Shown in pieces: positions 3,563-56,377 of a stretch of DNA of 64,000 bases (within the stretch, counting starts at the first letter, position 1; each line of letters begins with the position of its first letter). The stretch covers positions 209,839,912-209,903,911 of the forward strand of contig BTPG01000004.1 in assembly GCA_036245525.1 (NCBI GenBank), read 5' to 3'. Below the pieces are notes generated by a model that saw nothing but the letters and a program-made list of their open reading frames with translations, was not told the origin of the DNA and did no database searches. The position numbers and the translations under genes are program-made. The DNA is from Semisulcospira habei (taxonomy: Eukaryota > Mollusca > Gastropoda > Semisulcospiridae).

Positions 3563-3624
3563 AGATGTATGGTCTACTGCCCTGTGTTTACAAGCTGGTT
3601 GTCCGTCGTGATTTCGACGCTCTC

Positions 3625-3852
3625 GTTCGTTGATGGCAGTCGTTCGTTGATGGCAGTCGTTCGTTGTTGGCAGTCGTTCGTTGATGGCAGTCGTTCGTTG
3701 ATGGCAGTCGTTCGTTGATGGCAGTCGTTCGTTGTTGGCAGTCGTTCGTTGTTGCCAGTCGTTCGTTGATGGCAGTCGTTCGTTGTTGGCAGTCGTTCGT
3801 TGTTGCCAGTCGTTCGTTGTTGGCAGTCGTTCGTTGTTGGCAGTCGTTCGTT
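3625..3852. repeat. 17-bp minisatellite, about 13 units
   Basis: Unit GTTCGTTGATGGCAGTC, varying as GTTCGTTGTTGGCAGTC and GTTCGTTGTTGCCAGTC. The minus-strand 184-residue open frame over it is only the repeat translated. Confidence 0.95.
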
Positions 3853-4039
3853 GCAAGCGAATCCTCACTAATGGCTGACTAATGGTTGACGCAGCTACGC
3901 CAGTGAGTGAAAAAAAATGCGCATATAACGAAATTTTTTTTGTCAGCATCTGAAAAGAAAGAATAAGAAAGGCCGTAGAAAATGTCAAGAGAAACAAGCA
4001 AAGATTCGATATTGGATTAGGTAATTTGCCGAGATGGCT

Positions 4040-22292: not shown

Positions 22293-25200
22293 TAGTGAGG
22301 TTACGTTTACGCCAAACGACTCTCAACAACGAACGAGAACAAAGTCACGGCGGATAACCAGCTTCAAACCATAAGCGAAGACAACGGCACTCCGAACATC
22401 TCTAAGAGGCATATATCCTCAGGAACCCTCCGGGCTCCTGAGGATATAGGCCTATGGCATGCCTCTTGGAGATGTTCGGAGTGTTGTCTTTTGCATAGAT
22501 CATCCGAAGGAACTATGCCTCTTGGAGATGTTCGGAGTGTTGTCTTTTGCATAGATCATAAGGAACTATGCCTGCTGGAGATGTTCGGAGTGTTGTCTTT
22601 TGCATAGATCATAAGGAACTATGCCTGCTGGAGATGTTCGGAGTGTTGTCTTTTGCATAGATCATCCGAAGGAACTATGCCTCTTGGAGATGTTCGGAGT
22701 GTTGTCTTTTGCATAGATCATAAGGAACTATGCCTGCTGGAGATGTTCGGAGTGTTGTCTTTTGCATAGATCATAAGGAACTATGCCTGCTGGAGATGTT
22801 CGGAGTGTTGAGTTTTGCACAGATCATCAGAAGGAACTATGCTTCTTGAAGATGTTCGGAGTGTTGTCTTTTGCATAGATCATATTAAGGAACTATGCCT
22901 GCTGGAGATGTTCGGAGTGTTGGTCTTTTGCATAGATCATCCGAAGGAACTATGCCTGCTGGAGATGTTCGGAGTGTTGTCTTTTGCATAGATCACCAGA
23001 AGAAACTATGCCTCTTGGAGATGTTCGGGGTGTTGTCTTTTGCATAGATCATCCGAAGGAACTATGCCTGCTGGAGATGTTCGGAGTGTTGTCTTTTGCA
23101 TAGATCACCAGAAGAAACTATGCCTCTTGGAGATGTTCGGGGTGTTGTCTTTTGCATAGATCATCCGAAGGAACTATGCCTGCTGGAGATGTTCGGAGTG
23201 TTGTCTTTTGCATAGATCATCCGAAGGAACTATGCTTCTTGGAGATGTTCGGAGTGTTGTCTTTTGCATAGATCATAAGGAACTATGCCTGCTGGAGATG
23301 TTCGGAGTGTTGTCTTTTGCATAGAGCACCAGAAGAAACTATGCCTCTTGGAGATGTTCGGAGTGTTGTCTTTTGCATAGATAATAAGGAACTATGCCTG
23401 CTGGAGATGTTCGGAGTGTTGTCTTTTGCATAGATCATCCGAAGGAACTATGCCTGCTGGAGATGTTCGGAGTATTGTCTTTTGCATAGATCATCCGAAG
23501 GAACTATGCCTGCTGGAGATGTTCGGAGTGTTGTCTTTTGCATAGATCATCCGAAGGAACTATGCCTCTTGGAGATGTTCGGAGTGTTGTCTTTTGCATA
23601 GATCATAAGGAACTATGCCTGCTGGAGATGTTCGGAGTGTTGTCTTTTGCATAGATCATCCGAAGGAACTATGCCTGCTGGAGATGTTCGGAGTGTTGTC
23701 TTTTGCATAGATCACCAGAAGAAACTATGCCTCTTGGAGATGTTCGGAGTGTTGTCTTTTGCATAGATCATCCGAAGGAACTATGCCTGCTGGAGATGTT
23801 CGGAGTGTTGTCTTTTGCATAGATCATCCGAAGGAACTATGCTTCTTGGAGATGTTCGGAGTGTTGTCTTTTGCATAGATCATAAGGAACTATGCCTGCT
23901 GGAGATGTTCGGAGTGTTGTCTTTTGCATAGAGCACCAGAAGAAACTATGCCTCTTGGAGATGTTCGGAGTGTTGTCTTTTGCATAGATAATAAGGAACT
24001 ATGCCTGCTGGAGATGTTCGGAGTGTTGTCTTTTGCATAGATCATCCGAAGGAACTATGCCTGCTGGAGATGTTCGGAGTATTGTCTTTTGCATAGATCA
24101 TCCGAAGGAACTATGCCTGCTGGAGATGTTCGGAGTGTTGTCTTTTGCATAGATCATCCGAAGGAACTATGCCTCTTGGAGATGTTCGGAGTGTTGTCTT
24201 TTGCATAGATCATAAGGAACTATGCCTGCTGGAGATGTTCGGAGTGTTGTCTTTTGCATAGATCATAAGGAACTATGCCTGCTGGAGATGTTCGGAGTGT
24301 TGTCTTTTGCATAGATCATCCGAAGGAACTATGCCTCTTGGAGATGTTCGGAGTGTTGTCTTTTGCATAGATCATAAGGAACTATGCCTGCTGGAGATGT
24401 TCGGAGTGTTGTCTTTTGCATAGATCATAAGGAACTATGCCTGCTGGAGATGTTCGGAGTGTTGTCTTTTGCATAGATCATAAGGAACTATGCCTGCTGG
24501 AGATGTTCGGAGTGTTGAGTTTTGCACAGATCATCAGAAGGAACTATGCTTCTTGAAGATGTTCGGAGTGTTGTCTTTTGCATAGATCATATTAAGGAAC
24601 TATGCCTGCTGGAGATGTTCGGAGTGTTGTCTTTTGCATAGATCATCCGAAGGAACTATGCCTGCTGGAGATGTTCGGAGTGTTGTCTTTTGCATAGATC
24701 ACCAGAAGAAACTATGCCTCTTGGAGATGTTCGGGGTGTTGTCTTTTGCATAGATCATCCGAAGGAACTATGCCTGCTGGAGATGTTCGGAGTGTTGTCT
24801 TTTGCATAGATCACCAGAAGAAACTATGCCTCTTGGAGATGTTCGGGGTGTTGTCTTTTGCATAGATCATCCGAAGGAACTATGCCTGCTGGAGATGTTC
24901 GGAGTGTTGTCTTTTGCATAGATCATCCGAAGGAACTATGCTTCTTGGAGATGTTCGGAGTGTTGTCTTTTGCATAGATCATAAGGAACTATGCCTGCTG
25001 GAGATGTTCGGAGTGTTGTCTTTTGCATAGAGCACCAGAAGAAACTATGCCTCTTGGAGATGTTCGGAGTGTTGTCTTTTGCATAGATAATAAGGAACTA
25101 TGCCTGCTGGAGATGTTCGGAGTGTTGTCTTTTGCATAGATCATCCGAAGGAACTATGCCTGCTGGAGATGTTCGGAGTATTGTCTTTTGCATAGATCAT

Positions 25201-27359
25201 CCGAAGGAACTATGCCTGCTGGAGATGTTCGGAGTGTTGTCTTTTGCATAGATCATCCGAAGGAACTATGCCTCTTGGAGATGTTCGGAGTGTTGTCTTT
25301 TGCATAGATCATAAGGAACTATGCCTGCTGGAGATGTTCGGAGTGTTGTCTTTTGCATAGATCATCCGAAGGAACTATGCCTGCTGGAGATGTTCGGAGT
25401 GTTGTCTTTTGCATAGATCACCAGAAGAAACTATGCCTCTTGGAGATGTTCGGAGTGTTGTCTTTTGCATAGATCATCCGAAGGAACTATGCCTGCTGGA
25501 GATGTTCGGAGTGTTGTCTTTTGCATAGATCATCCGAAGGAACTATGCTTCTTGGAGATGTTCGGAGTGTTGTCTTTTGCATAGATCATAAGGAACTATG
25601 CCTGCTGGAGATGTTCGGAGTGTTGTCTTTTGCATAGAGCACCAGAAGAAACTATGCCTCTTGGAGATGTTCGGAGTGTTGTCTTTTGCATAGATAATAA
25701 GGAACTATGCCTGCTGGAGATGTTCGGAGTGTTGTCTTTTGCATAGATCATCCGAAGGAACTATGCCTGCTGGAGATGTTCGGAGTATTGTCTTTTGCAT
25801 AGATCATCCGAAGGAACTATGCCTGCTGGAGATGTTCGGAGTGTTGTCTTTTGCATAGATCATCCGAAGGAACTATGCCTCTTGGAGATGTTCGGAGTGT
25901 TGTCTTTTGCATAGATCATAAGGAACTATGCCTGCTGGAGATGTTCGGAGTGTTGTCTTTTGCATAGATCATAAGGAACTATGCCTGCTGGAGATGTTCG
26001 GAGTGTTGTCTTTTGCATAGATCATCCGAAGGAACTATGCCTCTTGGAGATGTTCGGAGTGTTGTCTTTTGCATAGATCATAAGGAACTATGCCTGCTGG
26101 AGATGTTCGGAGTGTTGTCTTTTGCATAGATCATAAGGAACTATGCCTGCTGGAGATGTTCGGAGTGTTGTCTTTTGCATAGATCATCAGAAGGAACTAT
26201 GCCTCTTGGAGATGTTCGGAGTGTTGTCTTTTGCATAGATCATAAGGAACTATGCCTGCTGGAGATGTTCGGAGTGTTGTCTTTTGCATAGATCATCCGA
26301 AGGAACTATGCCTGCTGGCGATTTTCGGATTGTTGTCTTTTGCATAGATCATCAGAAGGAACTATGCTTCTTGGAGATGTTCGGAGTGTTGTCTTTTGCA
26401 TAGATCATAAGGAACTATGCCTGCTGGAGATGTTCGGAGTGTTGTCTTTTGCATAGATCATACGAAGGAACTATGCCTGCTGGAGATGTTCGGAGTGTTG
26501 TCTTTTGCATAGATCATCAGAAGGAACTATGCTTCTTGGAGATGTTCGGAGTGTTGTCTTTTGCATAGATCATACGAAGGAACTATGCCTGCTGGAGATG
26601 TTCGGAGTGTTGTCTTTTGCATAGATCATCCGAAGGAACTATGCCTGCTGGAGATGTTCGGAGTGTTGTCTTTTGCATAGATCATCAGAAGGAACTATGC
26701 TTCTTGGAGATGTTCGGAGTGTTGTCTTTTGCATAGATCATCCGAAGGAACTATGCCTGCTGGAGATGTTCGGAGTGTTGCCTTTTGCATAGATCATGAG
26801 GAACTATGCCTGCTGGAGATGTTCGGAGTGTTGTCTTTTGCATAGATCATCCGAAGGAACTATGCTTCTTGGAGATGTTCGGAGTGTTGTCTTTTGCATA
26901 GATCATCCGAAGGAACTATGCCTGCTGGAGATGTTCGGAGTGTTGCCTTTTGCATAGATCATAAGGAACTATGCCTGCTAGAGATGTTCGGAGTGTTGTC
27001 TTTTGCATAGATCATCCGAAGGAACTATGCCTGCTGGAGATGTTCGGAGTGTTGTCTTTTGCATAGATCATAAGGAACTATGCCTGCTGGAGATATTCGG
27101 AGTGTTGTCTTTTGCATAGATCATCAGAAGGAACTATGCCTCTTGGAGATGTTCGGAGTGTTGTCTTTTGCATAGATCATAAGGAACTATGCCTGCTGGA
27201 GATGTTCGGAGTGTTGTCTTTTGCATAGATCATCAGAAGAAACTATGCCTCTTGGAGATGTTCGGAGTGTTGTCTTTGCTTATGGTCCAAGCTGACCGTG
27301 AGCCGTGATTCGTTCTCGTTTGTTGTCGGGTCTAGTTCATTCCAAATGTAACCTCACTA
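22293..27359. mobile_element. Palindromic element whose right arm expanded into a satellite
   Basis: The left outer arm (22293-22400, AGTGAGGTTACGTTTACGCC through AACCATAAGCGAAGACAAC) pairs with the right outer arm (27270-27359, TTGTCTTTGCTTATGGTCC to AAATGTAACCTCACT). A central hairpin AAGAGGCATATATCCTCAGG lies at 22404-22470. The whole tandem array sits between the central hairpin and the right outer arm. The original element would have been only a few hundred base pairs. Confidence 0.85.
22440..27280. repeat. 53/56-bp satellite array, about 88 units
   Basis: Each unit reads CATAGATCATCCGAAGGAAC (or the 3-bp-shorter CATAGATCATAAGGAAC), TATGCCTGCTGGAGATG, TTCGGAGTGTTGTCTTTTG. Rare variants mark higher-order structure. 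AGAGCACC occurs at 23323, 23930, 25029 and 25636, spacings of 607, 1099 and 607. AGTTTTGCAC occurs at 22811 and 24518, 1707 bp apart. No open frame of note crosses it, so it is non-coding. Confidence 0.97.
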
Positions 27360-27522
27360 TTAATACGTGATCCTCCGACAAACTGATATCAGTGCTTTAC
27401 GCATCTTATCATCTGCATACTAGTGTATTCATTTTATTATTATTTTTTTTTTAATAACAAAGGTGTCAATTTACCTTACCTCCCTTGTCCTTACGTCCTG
27501 GGCTTAAATTTCACCAGACAGA

Positions 27523-28175
27523 TTATATATATAATTTTTCATTAAATTCTGTGAATGCTGTGCTAAAGCCATGGAACTCCAGGCTGGTAAGTTTGCATTG
27601 TGTCATCAGGACATCAGCTGCCCTTTTTATGACTGCATCGCTCACAAGATCTTTTGAGGTTCCACTGAACACCTACTACATACAGCAGTAGGGACTACCC
27701 CCAAGGCGCTCCGCTATACGCTGGATGACTGGATCGGGGGGAGGACTGGAACACCTTGCATCCCTAAAGCTTTATGAGGTGTTGCAGTGGAAGAAGACTA
27801 ACAAATTTTGAAAAGGCAACGCCTAGGCAATTTTGTGGTGCAATTATTCTTTATGTTTAATAAAGGCGTCGCCCAAAGCCAAAAAATGCACTCAATCAGA
27901 TTAGCTCCAAGGGACGTAATTTTTCATTAAATTCTGAGAATGCTGTGCTAAAGCTATGAAACTCCAGGCTGGTAAGCTTGCATTGTGTCATCAGGACATC
28001 AGCTGCCCTTTTTATGACTGCATCGCTCATAAGATCTTTTGAGCCCTCCACTGAACGCCTACTACATAGAGCAGTAGGGACTACCCCCAGGCGCCCCGCC
28101 ATACGCTGGATAACTGGATCGGGCGGAGGACTGGATGGCGCATAAAAAGGGAGCTGATGACACAATGCAAGCATT
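27523..28175. repeat. Dispersed repeat shared with 47.9-52.9 kb; ribozyme segment absent
   Basis: Two copies (about 27523-27905 and 27906-28130) share TAATTTTTCATTAAATTCTG, GGCTGGTAAG, TGTGTCATCAGGACATCAGC and CAGTAGGGACTACCCCC with 47935-48160 and 51600-52620. The segment that carries the hammerhead at 48 kb is missing. The end (28140-28170) returns as an inverted piece, GAGCTGATGACACAATGCAAG. Minus-strand translation keeps DAVIKRAADVLMTQCKLTS, also seen in the 52-kb copies. Confidence 0.85.
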
Positions 28176-39740: not shown

Positions 39741-43345
<3,605 letters not shown>

Positions 43346-47492: not shown

Positions 47493-47559
47493 TGCAAGAG
47501 GGATAGATCCTCATGAGCCCCCGCTGTTGCAGGGGCTCACGAGGATTTATGCCTCTTGC
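47493..47559. mobile_element. Family-A hairpin core
   Basis: GCAAGAGGGATAGATCCTC to TTATGCCTCTTGC, centre GCCCCCGCTGTTGCAGGGGC. A (TTTA)n run at 47574-47604 follows. Confidence 0.85.
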
Positions 47560-47914: not shown

Positions 47915-47934
47915 AATGTATGTGTATATATAAT

Positions 47935-48303
47935 TTTTATTTCAATTCTGAGCATGCTGTGCTAATGCCATGAAATTCCAGGTTGGTAAGCTTGTATTGT
48001 GTCATCAGCTGCCCTTTTTGTGACTGCATCACTCACTAGTTCTAGAAAAGAGAGGGTAGTGGGAGAGAAGAAATGACAGACCTATCATTTTGAGCCTTCC
48101 ACTGAACACCTACTACATAAAGCAGTAGGGACTACCCCCAGGCGCCCCGCCAGAGAATATCCAGACCTCCCCCCCCTAGGGGGATGCTAGAAAATATTCC
48201 CAAACAGATATTGGACCTGCTGAGTAGATTTTAAGTTTTTGCCGCCTACGACCGGTTTCGCCCCAAGGGGGGCTCTTCAGGTAGGCATACGGCGTAACCT
48301 GAA
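47935..48303 (-). repeat. Hammerhead-bearing repeat, first part (interrupted)
   Basis: Shares with 51.5-52.6 kb AATTCTGAGCATGCTGTGCT, TGTGTCATCAGCTGCCC, CAGTAGGGACTACCCCC and GGATGCTAGAAAATATTCCC. It ends with the ribozyme segment and GGCGTAACCTGAA. The repeat continues at 51513 after a LINE insertion. Strand is given as that of the ribozyme. Confidence 0.87.
48244..48286 (-). ncRNA. Type I hammerhead self-cleaving ribozyme
   Basis: Read on the minus strand from 48286: GCCTAC (stem I), CTGAAGA (matches the invariant CUGANGA core), GCCCC-CCTT-GGGGC (stem II and tetraloop), GAAA, then CCGG (stem III), TC, and GTAGGC (stem I, exact complement). The predicted cut follows the C of GUC, between 48250 and 48249. 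The self-complementary CCGG stem III without a loop is as in newt-satellite-type hammerheads, which act best as dimers. Known relatives sit in Penelope-like elements, amphibian and schistosome satellites and animal retrozymes. All invariant core bases are present. Activity is untested. Confidence 0.85.
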
Positions 48304-49139
48304 GTGCAAGTGCAAGTTTTAATGGATAGGGACTTCCAGCTGTCGCTGATTTCGTCCACGGGGGGGGGGGGGGGGGGGGGAGGGGCGGGGGCGGGGGGGG
48401 GGGGGGGGATGGGGGTCTAAGTTTCGCTGTTTGTCGCTGCCGTCCGCGCAGCACTTTTGTATCATCCCTCTCGTCATGGCCGTACGTGCCCTAGAAGGCT
48501 GGGTCGCTGGGGGGAACGCCTGTGCTCCCATGGAGGTCTGGATTCCCGTCTTGTTGGCCGGTGGTGTTGGTTCCTGTCTCTCCTTAGTGGGCACAGTCCA
48601 AGGCCGGGTTTTTTTAGGCCCCGCCCTCTCTTTTCCCTCATGGTTGTTTGAGGAGGGTTGATTCTTACTAACCCCCCTATATGTGTTTCTGTATTTCGTT
48701 GGAAGGGGGTGTTGTACCCTCCATTGCCCAGGGAGTGCATGGACGAAGGATGCTAAACCTCCCTGGGTACCCTATTTATTTTGATGGGTGGTGACCGCAC
48801 GCAGGCGAGCGGGGAGTCACGCGGTGTCGGAGTGCCATCGAGGGTACCTCCCCGCCCTGGGTTGTCTAACCCTCCTATCCCGCAGAGTGGGCCTTCCAGG
48901 AGTGTCCTCCTCTACGGCCCAATACGGAAAAGATGGACCCCGGATCCGGCTGCCAGCCCCCGGGCGCGTCCCACCGCAGAGCTCGGTGGGGGCGGGGGGG
49001 CCTCATGTGCTCGCCGCCGGGACCCTCTCACCGCTAGGAGGGGGGCAATTGGTCAAAAAGTCTCCTGGGGGGGGGGGGGGCTATCTTAACATACCGTTGG
49101 CGGAAAAATAAAGGAAAGTAACGTGTACAGACAAAAAAC

Positions 49140-49202
<63 letters not shown>

Positions 49203-50742
49203 ATAGGATGGTGTCATGGGTGGTCCCTGGGCACCCTCCCCCCCCCCCCACGCCCGAGCGGACCCTGGCAGTGGCCTCCGCCGGACCGGGGGACCCACCC
49301 GCGGCGGGGGGGGGGGGGGGGAAGAGGGGACGGCCAGGGACCGGGACCGGGTGATTGGTGATGATGAGGATGATGTGATATCTCTTTATTAACCATGGGG
49401 AGGTAGGGCGGGTGCGGGACCATGAGGTGGAGTGGCGACGAGGGTGACCTGTGTTTGCTGTTCGGCCCTAGGGCCCACGGCAACACTTCGCGAGTGGATA
49501 GTTTGAAAATAAGTGGGGAGGGGCCTGTGGGGGCGGGTCCGCCACCGCATGACTCTAGGAGGGTATTATCCTGCGCATAGGCCACCACCCATTATCTATG
49601 TTTATAAGGAGTGCATTGGCGATGGATGCTAAACCTCCTTTGTTTGGGCCTATTTTATTTAAGTGGTTGCCCCCCCCCCCCCCCTTCGTCCAGGCTGGGC
49701 TCCAGCCGCCCGGATTTGCCTGCTCTCTGGTTGCTCCCCCCTGTGTTCCTCCCCGGGTCCTATCTGGTCGGCCCCGGGTGGCCCAGCGGGGGACCGGGAC
49801 GCTCCGGGGCGCCCTGCGGTTTCCGACCCCGGCCTGCCGTGATAATGCCGACCATGGCGCGGTCACCGCGGAGCTCCCCGGGACTCCGCCCCCACTGGGT
49901 AGGGTTGGGAGTTGTGGGCCGTATTTCCCCGGTTCTGGGGGACTCCCGGCCCGGGAAGGTCTCAGGAGCCCCCCCGGCCGTGGACTGCTAAAAAAAAAAA
50001 AATAAAAAAGGTTTCGGGGGGTGGGGTGGGGTGGGGTGGGGGGAGTATGCGGATGAGATGACTCTTTATTACCCGGGGGGTGGAGGGCGTGTGTTCGGGC
50101 CATGAGATGAGAGGGTAGGATATGATGGGTTCACCCTCTCCCCCCTCACGCCGCCCCCCCCCCCCCCGGCCTTTATTGGGTGGGCGGCGGGGTGAGGCGG
50201 GCGTTCCCGGAGTGGATAGATACAAGAGGCTATGGGGTGGGGGTTGTGAGAGCAGGCACCGGGCAGTTCTGGGAGACCTGGATCGGGAGGGCTTCCCACT
50301 GTCTGGGGAGCTATCTTTTTGAGTACCCCGGCTGGGCTGCCCGGGCGGGGTGGTTGTGATGGGAGTGCGGAGGATGAACATGACGAGGGGGTGGGGAACG
50401 GTTTTTATTACCTTGGGGGTCCGTGGGAGGGGGGCGGGTGCTTTGACCATGGTCGATGGTGGGGGATGATTGATAGTGGGGGGACCCCTTCTGTCTCTCA
50501 CTCTTGTATTCTACATTCTTCCTTCTTTTATTGCCCTTGCATGCGCTCAGTCTCTCTCCTCTCTCATATCATTCTTACACCCGTTGTGCCCGGCCGGGGG
50601 ACTATCTATGTTTGAGCACTTCAGGCTCGGGGGTGCTCGGACGGCGACGAGAGCTAACCCCCCGAACTCAGCGCCATGATCGTGGATCATGAGCCTTCTG
50701 TGCTGTGGGAGAGGGGTTGGTATGGTTCTTAAAGTGTTTTGG
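48304..50742 (-). other. Long G/C-rich 3' region of the minus-strand LINE
   Basis: No coding region is supported; many proline/glycine frames are compositional. It contains diverged internal repeats: GGATGCTAAACCTCC at about 48748 and 49625, and a block with CTCTTTATTAACC or TTTTTATTACC near 49382, 50063 and 50400, each followed by a G-rich stretch and a CCATGA-like word. On the minus strand these blocks contain AATAAA. G runs of 8-22 bases recur at 48361, 48395, 49066, 49304 and 50030. A (CA)n run lies at 49139-49200. Confidence 0.6.
49139..49201. repeat. (CA)n microsatellite
   Basis: About 62 bp of CA within the LINE 3' region. Confidence 0.96.
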
Positions 50743-51499
50743 TTATATGTATTTGACTAGGGGGTGCTCTTTGAGTAGTTGAATTGTGTGTTTGGTGGTG
50801 GTGGACCATGTTGTTGGGTCAGGGTTTATGAGGCCTTCTAGGGTGAGGGGCGTGTTGAATTTATCTGCTAGTGTGGTTCTGGTTTCTTCTATGTTTGGGC
50901 AGTCTAGCAGTATGTGTTCCGTAGTGAGTATGTGGCCGCATGTGCACACTATTTGGTTAGGGTGGACTAGGTATTTTTCGCCCCCTAATCAGATTCTTGT
51001 TAACCGTGACTGGTCTCTCCTCTTGCCTGAAAAGAGGGTGGGTGTGTTGTTAAGTACCCTCGTGAGATTTTTTTCGCCTTCCTCTTTTGGTCTGGTGGAA
51101 TTCTTTTACCCATAGGTTTTGAAAAGCGGGTCGGAGTGCACTTGACCGTTCGTTCGCTGAGAGGGGTAGGTTGAAGAAGGTCGATTCTTGGTCGAGGCCT
51201 TTCTTCGCTATTCTGTCTGCTCGTTCATTGCCTGGGATCCACACATGGGAGGGGACCCACATGATTTTGACCGTTTGGCCGCGTTCTGCGAGTTCTGCTG
51301 CTCGTAGTCTGAATCAGGTAGGTTAGGTCTTCTCTGGACGAGTCTAGGTTTTGGATCGCCTGAATTGCTGATAAGGAGTCCGTCGCTATAAGTATGTGTT
51401 TGGTTTTCTGTAGGTCACTTTTTATTGCCTTAATGGCTTCTAAGATGGCCGTGAGTTCGGCTGTAAAAACTGCTGAGTAATCCGGTAGTTTTATAGCCC
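50743..51499 (-). pseudogene. LINE RNase H domain and C-terminal zinc-knuckle region, frameshifted
   Basis: Reading from 51499: IKLPDYSAVFTAELTAILEA and HILIATDSLSAIQAIQNL, the E- and D-bearing motifs of RNase H. A frameshift follows near 51300, then MWVPSHVWIPGNERADRIAK (last RNase H motif with its D). A second break comes near 51060. The C-terminal part reads CTCGHILTTEHILLDCPNIE (Cys/His knuckle CxC-H-H-C). It represents only the 3' quarter of an I/Jockey-like ORF2. It differs from the RNase-H LINE at 5160-6650. Confidence 0.85.
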
Positions 51500-51512
51500 G
51501 GCGTAACCTGAA

Positions 51513-52097
51513 ATTACAAACACAACGCAAGTACTAGAAGCCGCCTCCAGAATTTACTGGTAGCACCGCCAGAACAGCGCGGATTGCATCCCTAAAGCTT
51601 TATGAGTGTTCCAGTGGAAGAAGACAGACTAATTTCGAAAAGGCAACACCTAGTCAATTTTGTGGTGCAATTATTCTTTACTTTTAACAAAGGCGTCGCA
51701 CAAAGCCAAAAAAATGCACTCAATCGGATTAGTTCCAAGGGACGTAATTTTTCATTCAATTCTGAGAATGATGTGCTAATGCCATGGAATTCCAGGCTGG
51801 TAAGCTTACATTGTGTCAGCAGGACATCAGCTGCCCATTTGTGACTGCATCGCTTACTAGTTCTATAAAAAGAGAGGATAGCGGGAGAGAAGGAATGACA
51901 GACCTATCATTTTTAGCCTTCCACTGAACACCTACGACATAAAGCAGTAGGGACTACCCCCAGGTGTCCCGCCATCCGCTGGAGAATATCCAGACCTCCC
52001 CCCGAGGGGGATGCTAGAAAATATTCCCAAACAGATATCCGACCTGCTGATTAGATTTTAAGATTTTGCCGCCTACGACCGGTTTCGCCCCAAGGGG
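51513..52097 (-). repeat. Hammerhead-family repeat, monomer with truncated ribozyme
   Basis: Starts ATTACAAACACAACGCAAG, continues the copy broken at 48303, and repeats head to tail at 52098 with a 573-bp spacing (GCGCGGATTGCATCCC at 51578 and 52151). At 52071-52100 it keeps GCCTAC, GACCGG, TTTC and the stem-II GCCCCAAGGGGGGC. It then jumps to GCAAGTACTAG, so the CUGANGA strand is deleted and this ribozyme copy is dead. Counting across the LINE, the ribozyme-to-ribozyme monomer is about 618 nt. Confidence 0.87.
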
Positions 52098-52620
52098 GGC
52101 GCAAGTACTAGAAGCCGCGACCAGAATTTACTGGTAGCTCCGCCAGAACAGCGCGGATTGCATCCCTAAAGCTTTATGAGGTGTTGCAGTGGAAGAAGAC
52201 AGACTAATTTCGAAAAGGCAACACCTAGGCAATTTTGTGGTGCAATTATTCTTTACTTTTAACAAAGGCGTCGCACAAAACCAAAAATGCACTCAATCGG
52301 ATTAGCTCCAAGGGACGTAATTTTTCATTCAATTCTGAGAATGCTGTGCTAGTGCCATGGAATTCCAGGCTGGTAAGCTTGCATTGTGTCATCAGGACAT
52401 CAGCTGCCCTTTTTGTGACTGCATCGCTTACTAGTTCTATAAAAAGAGAGGGTAGTGGGAGAGAAGGAATGACAGACCTATCATTTTGAGCCTTCCACTG
52501 AACACCTACTACATAAAGCTGTAGGGACTACCCCCAGGCACCCCGCCATCCCCTGGAGAATATCCAGACCTCCCCCCGAAGGGGGATGCTAGTGCTAGAA
52601 ATATTCCCAAACAGATTATA
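52098..52620 (-). repeat. Hammerhead-family repeat, next monomer, 3'-truncated
   Basis: Same order of sequences as 51525-52020, ending at AATATTCCCAAACAG, where an ATATAT run begins; the ribozyme segment is absent. Minus-strand translation preserves a frame with RAADVLMTQCKLTSLEFHG. Confidence 0.87.
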
Positions 52621-52945
52621 TATATATATATTCTTTACTTTAAACAAAGGCGTCACCCAAAGCCAAAAATGCACTCAATCAGATTAGTTCCAAGGGACGT
52701 AATTTTTCATTTAAATTCTGAGAATGCTCTGCTGATAGGTCTGTCATTCCTTTTCTCCCACTTCCCACTAACCCTTTCTTTCTAGATCTAGTGAGCGATG
52801 CAGTCACAAAAAAGGCAGCTGATGTCCTGATGACACAGTGCAAGCTTACCAGCCTGGAATTCCATGGCATTAGTACAGCATAGCATTGTCAGAATTTAAA
52901 TGAAAATTTATATTTATATATATATATATATTGTTTCATGAAAGA
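52621..52945. repeat. Hammerhead-family repeat, inverted and rearranged pieces
   Basis: A plus-oriented piece (AAACAAAGGCGTCACCCAAAG to AAATTCTGAGAATGC) turns at about 52733 into an inverted piece (GATAGGTCTGTCATTCC through TCCATGGCATTAGTACAGCA). AT dinucleotide runs flank both ends (52618-52630, 52905-52932). Confidence 0.8.
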
Positions 52946-52975
52946 AAGGGTTACTAGTTCGTAATATCTCCCATA

Positions 52976-54431
52976 TGTGGTGTGTGAAACGGATGTGAGG
53001 CGGCTTCTCAGACATTTGAATGTGCGTAAGCAGCAGGCCCTGATGAAATTTCTCCTGGCCTTTTGCGTTACTGTGCCGACCAGCTCTCGAGCGTTCTCAC
53101 AGTCATATGTAACTGGCCATTACATGCATGCTAGGTTCCACACTGTCTCAAAAAGTCAGCTATTATCCCCGTACCAAAAAAAGGCAACCATCAGTACCCT
53201 TAACGACTATAGGCCTGTGCCATTGACCTCCGTCATAATGAAAAAGTTCGAGCGGCTGGTCCTGCAGCACATCAAGTCTGTCATGCCCCCCCCCCCCCCC
53301 CCCGCCCCTTCCCTCGATCCTTATCAGTTTGCTAACCGCGCGAACCGATCAGTAGAGGACGCTGTTTCGCTAGGGCTGCGCTATATTCTGCAGCATCTGC
53401 AGAAGCTAAATGCGTATGTTAGGCTGCTTTTTGTTGATTACAGCAGCGCATTCAACACTATCATACCGTCCAAACTGCATGAAAAGCTGCTGCACCTTGC
53501 TTCGCACACTTCCTCTGTAACTGGGTTCTGGATTTCCTGTTAAACAGACCCCAGATTGTCAGGATCGGTTCGTGCGGTCAGAACTGTGTTCAGCTGTGTC
53601 AGTTCCCTACTCCTGGTCAATGTGTACATTTATCCCAGTCTTTGACCTTGAGTACGGGAGCTTCCCAAGGATGTGTTTTATCCCCATTGTTGTATTCTCT
53701 TTTTACACACGACTATGATAGCACACGCATAGTGAAATTTGCTGATGATACGACAGTCAAGGGTTTTGTACATAACAATGACGAGAGTGCATAATTATCG
53801 GGATGAGGTAGACATGTTAGTAGGTTGGTGTTCTGACAACAACCTCGATTTGCATGTTGGTAAGACCAAAGAAATGATAATCGATTTCAGGAAAAGGAAA
53901 ACTGACCAATTTCCCTTAACCCTCCAAGGAAACGATATTGAAATTGTTGAAAAGTTGAAGTTCCTGGGCACTCTCATTTTGCACGATCTCAAGTTGGAGA
54001 AGAATATTGAACAGCTAGTAAAGAAAGCCCAGCAGCGCCTGTTTTTTCTTCGGTGGTTAAAGTCTTTTGGCGTCAGTCAGTAGATCATGGTGCAGTTTTA
54101 CCGCGCCGCCATTGAGAGCGTTCTTACCTTCTCTTTGACGGTGTGGTATGGCAGCGCAACGGACGAAACCCGCAAGAAATTAAATGGAGTGATCAAAACA
54201 GCACCTCGTATTGTTGGAAGCGATCTCCTCTCGCTGGAATCTCTGTACCACGCACGCACCATCAAGAGAGCGAGCTCCATCATACATGACGAGCATCATC
54301 CTGCAAATAGCCTGTTCGACCCCTTACCATCTGGCTCACGCTTTAAATCCATTAAGGCCAAAACCATTCGTTTTCAAAAGAGCTTTTATCCCTTGGCTGT
54401 TCAGGCCCTGTCTAATGTGGCTGTGATATGA
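52976..54431 (+). pseudogene. LINE reverse transcriptase, palm to C-terminus, several breaks
   Basis: In order: VRRLLRHLNVRK (after which GPDEISPGLLRYCADQL continues in another frame), NDYRPVPLTSVIMKKFERLV, LLFVDYSSAFNTIIPSKL (motif A, about 53427), [16 protein letters not shown] (53654), KFADDTTV (catalytic box, 53737), DNNLDLHVGKTKEMIIDFRK, KAQQRLFFLRWLKSFGVSQ, stop, then QFYRAAIESVLTFSLTVWYG and LFDPLPSGSRFKSIKAKTIR. Word order and C-terminus match the Rex1/L2-like branch of CR1-type elements as I recall; the clade is tentative. Frameshifts and stops mean it is dead. A poly-C run at 53286-53302 codes an added proline tract. Confidence 0.87.
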
Positions 54432-54573
54432 TTTAACTCAGCAAATTGACTCAAAGTCCCTTTAGAATTACCTACAGCCCATCTTAGTTGTTTATTGTTT
54501 TTTATATCTTCTCTTAACCCTTGCTTAGACAGGATCTATAGTTTTACAAATACGTTTGAATTTAGCTAATCTG

Positions 54574-56377
54574 CATGAAAAAGGCAAAAATAAGTGGATT
54601 GAAGATCAGTGTAAACACGTAGAAGAAAATCTGAACAAAAATAATAGCAGGAAAGCATACCAGCTGGTGAAAGACCTGACCAGTGTAAAACAAGGACGCT
54701 CCTCGGTCATTCAAGATAGTGAAGGGAACTGTCTTACGGAAGACCAAGACATACTGAAGAGATGGACAGAGTACTGCTCAGATTTGTACAACCACCGAGC
54801 TGCAGGGGACCCAGGCATACTTGTCAACCCACCCGTGACCAACGATGGCAACTATCCCATCCTCCGAGAAGAAGTAGAGGCTGCAGTGAAGTCGCTGGAA
54901 AAAAAAAAGGGAAGGCAGCAGGAGCAGACAATATCCCTGCAGAGCTAGTCCAAGAAAGGGGAGAAGACACGATAAGCGCCTTACTAACAATCTGCAATAA
55001 GATCTGGCAGTCAGGGGATTGGCCCACACCATGGACCCAATCACTTATAATAACTCTCCCCCAAAAAGGCAACTTACATCAATGCCAGAACTATCGCACG
55101 ATCAGTCTTATATCCCACCCAAGCAAAGTCATGTTAAAGATCCTACTGAACAGGCTGAAGCCACAGGCAGAGGAAATCATAGCTGAGGAACAGGCAGGCT
55201 TCAGACCAGGGCGCAGCACAACTGAGCAGATCGTCTACCCGAGAGTTCTATGTGAGAGATACCTCCAGCACCAGCAGGACCTCTATCATGTCTTTTGGGA
55301 TTTTAAGAAAGCGTTTGACAGGGTGTGGCATGCAGCCCTTTGGTCCACCTTGAAGCTATACAACATCAATGCCAACCTGATCAAAGTCATAGCAAACCTT
55401 TACAACAAGGCCACTAGCGCAGTCTGCTTCAACGGCAAAATAGGAAACTGGTTTAGGACTACAGTTAGAGTCAGACAAGGCTGCTTGCTCTCACCTACTC
55501 TTTTCAACATCTTCCTGGAAAGAATCATGACGGACGCTCTGAAAGATCATGAAGGAACTGTCAGTATTGGAGGCAAAACAATCACGAACGTGCGCTTTGC
55601 GGACGACATTGATGGCCTTGCAGGAACAGAGAAGGAGCTAGCTCAGCTGGTGGAAAAGCTGGATAGTACAGCCATTGCATATGGGATGGAAATCAGTGCA
55701 GAGAAGACCAAACTGATGACCAATAACGCCAGTGGCTTTGGCACTGAAATCACGGTTGGAGGCCAAAAACTGGAAACAGTTTAGAAATTCAAATACTTAG
55801 GAGCCATTGTGACAGATGAGGGATCGAAACCAGAAATACTGTCCAGGATTGCGCAGACAACAACATCACTGACAAGATTGAAGACCATAGAAACATCACA
55901 CTCTGCTCCAAGATCAGACTGATGCGCTCCTTAGTCATCTCAGTGTTCTTGTATGCCTGCGAGTCATGGACCCTCACAGCAGACCTTGAAAGGAGGATAC
56001 AAGCCACTGAAATGAGATGTTTTCGAAGGCTGCTTGGCATCTCATACAGAAATCACATCACAAACGAGGAAGTGGGAAGCAGAATCAGGCAAGCCATCAC
56101 GCCCTATGAAGACTTATTAGCCATTGTGAGAAAACGCAAACTGAAGTGGTACGGGCATGTCACGCGTTCAGCAGGGCTTGCCAAAACAATCCTGCAAGGC
56201 ACTGTGCAAGGAGGACGAAGGAGAGGAAGACAGAGGAAAAGATGGGAGGACAATATCTGAGGGTGGACAGGACTGAAGCTGGGCGATACGCTGAGAATGG
56301 CAGAGAACAGAGAGGAATGGAGGGAGCTGGTTGCCAAGTCATCAGTGGTGCCCCAACGGTCGGCAAGACTACGGGAT
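54574..56377 (+). pseudogene. LINE reverse transcriptase, near-complete domain, broken in at least three places
   Basis: In order: KQGRSSVIQDSEGN, REEVEAAVKSLEKKK, frameshift in an A run at 54900-54909, then KAAGADNIPAELVQ, NYRTISLISHPSKVMLKILL, AGFRPGRSTTEQI, FWDFKKAFDRVWH (motif A), RVRQGCLLSPTLFNIFLE, NVRFADDIDGLAGT (catalytic box, about 55585-55625). An in-frame TAG at 55782 precedes KFKYLGAIVTDEG. Another shift precedes SVFLYACESWTLTADLE, FRRLLGISYRNHITNEEV, KLKWYGHVTRSAG, GRRRGRQRKRWEDNI, and, after a stop, EWRELVAKSSVVPQRSARL. This layout is typical of the endonuclease-reverse transcriptase family often placed near RTE/RTE-X; the clade is tentative. N-terminal endonuclease is absent. 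Confidence 0.88.

Follow-up and report, generated by a model that had tools for sequence, protein, structure and literature searches.

The genome assembly of the gastropod Semisulcospira habei (GCA_036245525.1) contains, within a 64,000-nt stretch of contig BTPG01000004.1 (hereafter the window), a tandem and dispersed repeat with a hammerhead ribozyme motif, which raises the question of the type of mobile element this repeat belongs to. The original prediction offered two answers, a retrozyme or a Penelope-type remnant. The hammerheads of Penelope-like elements are described as minimal type I forms without helix III or tertiary contacts; they reside in pseudo-LTRs (pLTRs) or occur dispersed and may cut as dimers (PMC7761336, citing Cervera and de la Pena 2014 and Lunse et al. 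2017; the minimal form is also described in PMC6155905). Penelope-like enzymes are published candidates for moving animal retrozymes (PMC7761336).

The motif itself is located on the minus strand at 48286-48244 and reads GCCUAC-CUGAAGA-GCCCC(CCUU)GGGGC-GAA-ACCGGU-C/GUAGGC, the slash marking the cut predicted between 48250 and 48249, i.e. the same site as originally proposed. It displays the type I features CUGANGA, GAAA, a UH core and three helices with stem I open. As had been claimed, all invariant bases are present and stem I (GCCTAC/GTAGGC) is perfect, being formed by 6 Watson-Crick pairs without an internal loop; stem II has 5 pairs and a CCUU loop. Since stem I has no loop, loop-loop contacts are absent. 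A strict descriptor of type I hammerheads, requiring the core letters, at least 4 pairs in stem I and at least 3 in stem II, matched the window, both strands included, at this position only. The Rfam model Hammerhead_1 aligned to it over model positions 1-45 of 45 with 28.7 bits (E 5.2e-4, 5.5 kb scanned); as this lies under the gathering score of 34 bits, the Rfam scan of the whole window at gathering score yielded no matches. The permissive scan of the 5.5 kb returned seven further rows, all far under the cut-offs of their own families. Our guess would be that minimal Penelope hammerhead variants fall short of the Rfam gathering score.

A chance resemblance to a hammerhead, for which the sub-threshold Rfam score could be taken to speak, is extremely improbable. 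The strict descriptor had no match in 100 shuffled (first-order Markov) sequences as long as the window. In viral contigs 94 stretches, and in prokaryote contigs at least 117, matched the core letters together with CCGGTC, and none of these 211 listed matches combined a stem I of at least 4 pairs with a stem II of at least 3 pairs. An exact 18-nt stretch from the 3' half of the ribozyme was absent from viral contigs. Moreover, the ribozyme half retained in a second copy of the repeat (copy B, see below) is unchanged. The hammerhead motif at 48286-48244 is confirmed as real.

Folding predictions bear on the mode in which such a motif might act. In the monomer, stem III amounts at most to a loopless CCGG, whereas the self-complementary ACCGGU can form 6 bp between two strands. 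The lowest-energy monomer fold (-19.5 kcal/mol) mispairs the core CUG with CGG, versus -16.9 kcal/mol for the monomer hammerhead without stem III. Two strands folded without constraint are predicted to form a double hammerhead (-43.1 kcal/mol), in which ACCGGU self-pairs and the stem I strands swap; this supports the earlier assignment of the self-complementary CCGG stem III to the dimer type. The energy gain on dimerization is ordinary, being matched by 261 of 300 shuffles, and was dropped as evidence for dimer action. The informative part of the predicted dimer fold is that its lowest-energy form has the active topology.

The repeat unit measures 618 bp from the cut site of copy A to that of copy B with an intervening LINE-like insertion left out, in agreement with the approximately 618 nt originally given from ribozyme to ribozyme. 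Its GC content is 46%. BLAST and alignment across the window revealed eight repeat pieces in two clusters, covering all three places named before (27.5 kb, 47.9 kb and 51.5-52.9 kb). The features are as follows (repeat pieces by BLAST and alignment unless stated otherwise):

48244..48286, minus strand: intact minimal type I hammerhead ribozyme (descriptor, Rfam and fold)
47931..48303, minus strand: copy A, in ribozyme sense, its 3' end (47931) entering TA-rich DNA
48304..51498, minus strand: LINE-like insertion between copies B and A, with a 14-bp flanking duplication
51499..52100, minus strand: copy B, with the 3' half of the hammerhead at about 52071-52100
52100..52616, minus strand: copy C, lacking the ribozyme; a TA repeat takes the place of its 5' part
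52629..52736, minus strand: fragment D, upstream of copy C
52733..52910, plus strand: inverted fragment E, head to head with D, its 3' end in TA-rich DNA
27756..28113, minus strand: copy G of the second cluster, without the ribozyme segment
27532..27725, minus strand: copy F of the second cluster, its 3' end in a TA repeat (BLAST)
28141..28172, plus strand: inverted fragment H of the second cluster, 32 bp, E 5e-6 (BLAST)

Read in ribozyme sense on the minus strand, the first cluster runs D, C, B, A with E inverted, and the second G, F with H inverted, H standing head to head with G and being followed by a TA repeat. Each cluster thus combines partial copies in head-to-tail order with one inverted fragment placed head to head, and is bordered by TA repeats on the outside. 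The repeat is both tandem and dispersed, as had been stated. For the tandem spacing, originally given as 573 bp, BLAST of copies B and C gives 574 and 580 bp at the two ends of their match. Copies A, F and E share their end point to within a base or two, after AAAATT, where TA-rich sequence begins, while B, C, D and G continue into ACGTCC, i.e. the next unit; fragment H ends at another point of the unit, within a TA repeat. Because the repeat ends lie in TA repeats, no target-site duplications are readable. The sequence AATCTGTCTGG, which follows the 3' TA repeat of copy F (27500-27530), resembles AATCTGTTTGG after the TA repeat that starts copy C (52616-52640), and a TA repeat has perhaps replaced the ribozyme segment at both positions.

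Further repetitive features of the window comprise a 4.8-kb tandem array shortly before the second cluster (22459-27277; 56-bp unit, about 88 copies, 91% matches), a tandem array of the 17-bp unit TCGTTCGTTGTTGGCAG at 3623-3853, and a hairpin adjoining the repeat cluster at 47507-47546 (ATCCTCATGAGCCCC / GGGGCTCACGAGGAT; 14 of 15 pairs Watson-Crick, counted by eye).

Among the eight repeat pieces, only copy A carries the whole ribozyme. In copy B (52077-52100), stem II, GAAA and CCGGUC are retained, with the 3' strand of stem I located beyond them, and the substrate half is unchanged; CUGAAGA and the 5' strand of stem I are missing. The remaining six pieces are devoid of the ribozyme according to BLAST and alignment. 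Viewed by the four tandem junctions expected to hold it, the ribozyme is whole at B-A, halved at C-B, where a deletion of some 44 nt (the difference between 618 and 574) took CUGAAGA together with the 5' strand of stem I, exchanged for a TA repeat at D-C, and absent as a segment from G-F. It is therefore intact at one of four junctions and lost or half lost at three; loss of the conserved core from other genomic copies had originally been named as an argument against the prediction, and within the window this argument partly applies. Owing to the deletion in copy B, copies A and B could form at most one active site, A serving as enzyme and B as substrate, and they are predicted to fold as a single hammerhead (-38.3 kcal/mol) with A as the enzyme. 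A and B are identical over at most 36 consecutive nt, a run that starts in the ribozyme half but is no proof of selection, as the next longest measures 34 nt.

The insertion separating B from A is bounded by a 14-bp duplication (CGGCGTAACCTGAA, at 48290-48303 and 51499-51512) and, read on the minus strand, yields weak matches to RNase H/RVT_3 at about 51193-51488, all just under the Pfam cut-offs. The repeat unit itself contains no recognizable coding sequence. Its longest ORF comprises 103 aa, and a homologue search up to E 1 found none for it; Pfam assigned no family above cut-off to three ORFs of the unit; their weak rows (E 0.068-0.18) were taken as chance. In all, Pfam was applied to 24 ORFs of the window, these three included, namely 17 of the 32 with at least 130 aa plus 7 shorter ones; the other 15 of that length, many of simple repeats, and most shorter ones lay outside this sample. 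Three of the 24 contain reverse transcriptase (RT) domains (41811-42242, 52965-53540 and 54723-55781), two have sub-threshold RNase H or RVT_3 matches, and none matches GIY-YIG. No Penelope protein (RT plus GIY-YIG) was found in the unit or elsewhere among the 24 ORFs, consistent with the earlier remark that no Penelope coding sequence is visible. The RT domain at 54723-55781 (RVT_1, E 5e-39) belongs to LINE-like element ORFs at 54529-56260 and has 3983 homologues with E up to 1e-20; the best 120 of these, up to 83% identical, include an entry of the tubeworm Ridgeia piscesae and another under the label Thiolapillus sp.

Animal non-LTR retrozymes are transcribed into RNAs that cut themselves into monomers; ligation of these yields abundant small circles, the transposition intermediates. 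Retrozymes resemble the present repeat in being tandem and non-coding, with a GC content below 50% and a type I hammerhead (PMC7229834). The circular 618-nt monomer is predicted to fold more stably than 40 shuffled sequences (z -2.45; for the antisense strand z -1.61), and dimer-acting hammerheads are known from amphibian retrozymes (PMC7229834). In contrast, animal retrozymes measure about 170-400 nt and carry canonical type I hammerheads, which the authors of PMC7229834 call by the very loop-loop contacts that the loopless stem I lacks; tandem units of 150-450 bp with a canonical motif differ from the 618-bp unit and its minimal motif. Inverted head-to-head partial copies, as present in the clusters, do not form part of the description in the excerpted text of PMC7229834, and the window holds a single intact motif. 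A strict retrozyme therefore appears rather unlikely. Of the two options originally offered, Penelope-type fits better than retrozyme on account of the minimal loopless ribozyme, the unit of 618 bp versus 170-400 nt and the head-to-head inverted fragments in both clusters.

The Penelope side of the comparison rests on the kind of ribozyme and the layout of copies rather than on sequence relation to a known Penelope element. Like minimal Penelope hammerheads, which are thought to cut as dimers and occur also in non-coding DNA, the ribozyme of this dispersed, non-coding tandem repeat is of type I with a short or absent stem III and no tertiary loops; unlike the Penelope-like elements carrying them, the repeat has no attached Penelope coding region and no long ORF after the ribozyme (PMC7761336). 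In rotifer Penelope elements, a typical arrangement places a shorter pLTR, inverted head to head, next to direct ones (PMC3846280), and both clusters show this layout of direct and inverted copies. Rotifer pLTRs can also move foreign DNA in trans, as documented for an unrelated gene, and their families include members coding for RT and GIY-YIG, for which the 24 window ORFs gave no counterpart (PMC3846280). That the locus is an autonomous Penelope-like element reduced to solo or tandem pLTRs is very unlikely. Solo pLTRs do occur in rotifer Penelope (PMC3846280), but no RT plus GIY-YIG ORF was found among the 24 window ORFs, those of the unit included, and once the LINE is removed nothing coding separates B from A, which adjoin each other as a 618-bp unit. 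In the anole Penelope, which likewise has tandem copies and a hammerhead, the ORF begins at ribozyme stem II (PMC11167929), whereas here the frames of at least 45 aa open across or into ribozyme A end at 48179 and 48249.

Against the Penelope-type reading, the inverted outer ends of the first cluster, both in TA-rich DNA, could suggest a TA-targeting DNA element of the MITE or foldback type that contains the hammerhead by chance. This is a highly improbable explanation, since the end of fragment H in the second cluster falls elsewhere in the unit, which leaves no terminal inverted repeat in common. Head-to-tail copies are, in addition, unexpected for MITE or foldback elements.

The locus is best explained, with a probability of about 0.6, as a decayed, non-autonomous repeat of Penelope-type pLTR units, read on the minus strand, whose multimeric RNA would self-cleave and be mobilized by a helper RT in trans. 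As the Penelope ribozyme type and insertion geometry are combined with a retrozyme-like non-coding tandem nature, the unit is filed neither as an autonomous Penelope nor as a strict retrozyme. In the proposed mechanism, each 618-nt unit would contribute one minimal type I hammerhead to a multimeric transcript, in which two hammerheads would pair via ACCGGU and exchange their stem I strands to yield the double hammerhead. Cleavage after GUC would then release RNA of unit length, ending in a 5'-OH and a cyclic phosphate. A Penelope-like RT acting in trans might copy unit or multimer RNA, and insertion at AT-rich sites would leave partial copies in head-to-tail order together with one inverted head to head. 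A role of cleavage in spreading is itself hypothetical, because anole Penelope ribozyme mutants insert in vitro unaffected and, according to the excerpted text of PMC11167929, no RNA-seq reads end at the cut site.

The hammerhead repeat of S. habei adds one case to the Penelope-type ribozyme repeats already described and is mostly expected. A more far-reaching proposal is unlikely, namely that it stands for a long (about 618 nt) non-autonomous family combining a minimal, dimer-only hammerhead with Penelope-style insertion, in which circular RNA would be copied by a Penelope enzyme and which would link Penelope pLTRs and retrozymes. The present material is one decayed locus with one intact motif; a non-coding repeat uniting a Penelope-type ribozyme with Penelope-type insertion geometry is the kind of intermediate with which one could test which enzyme moves animal retrozymes.
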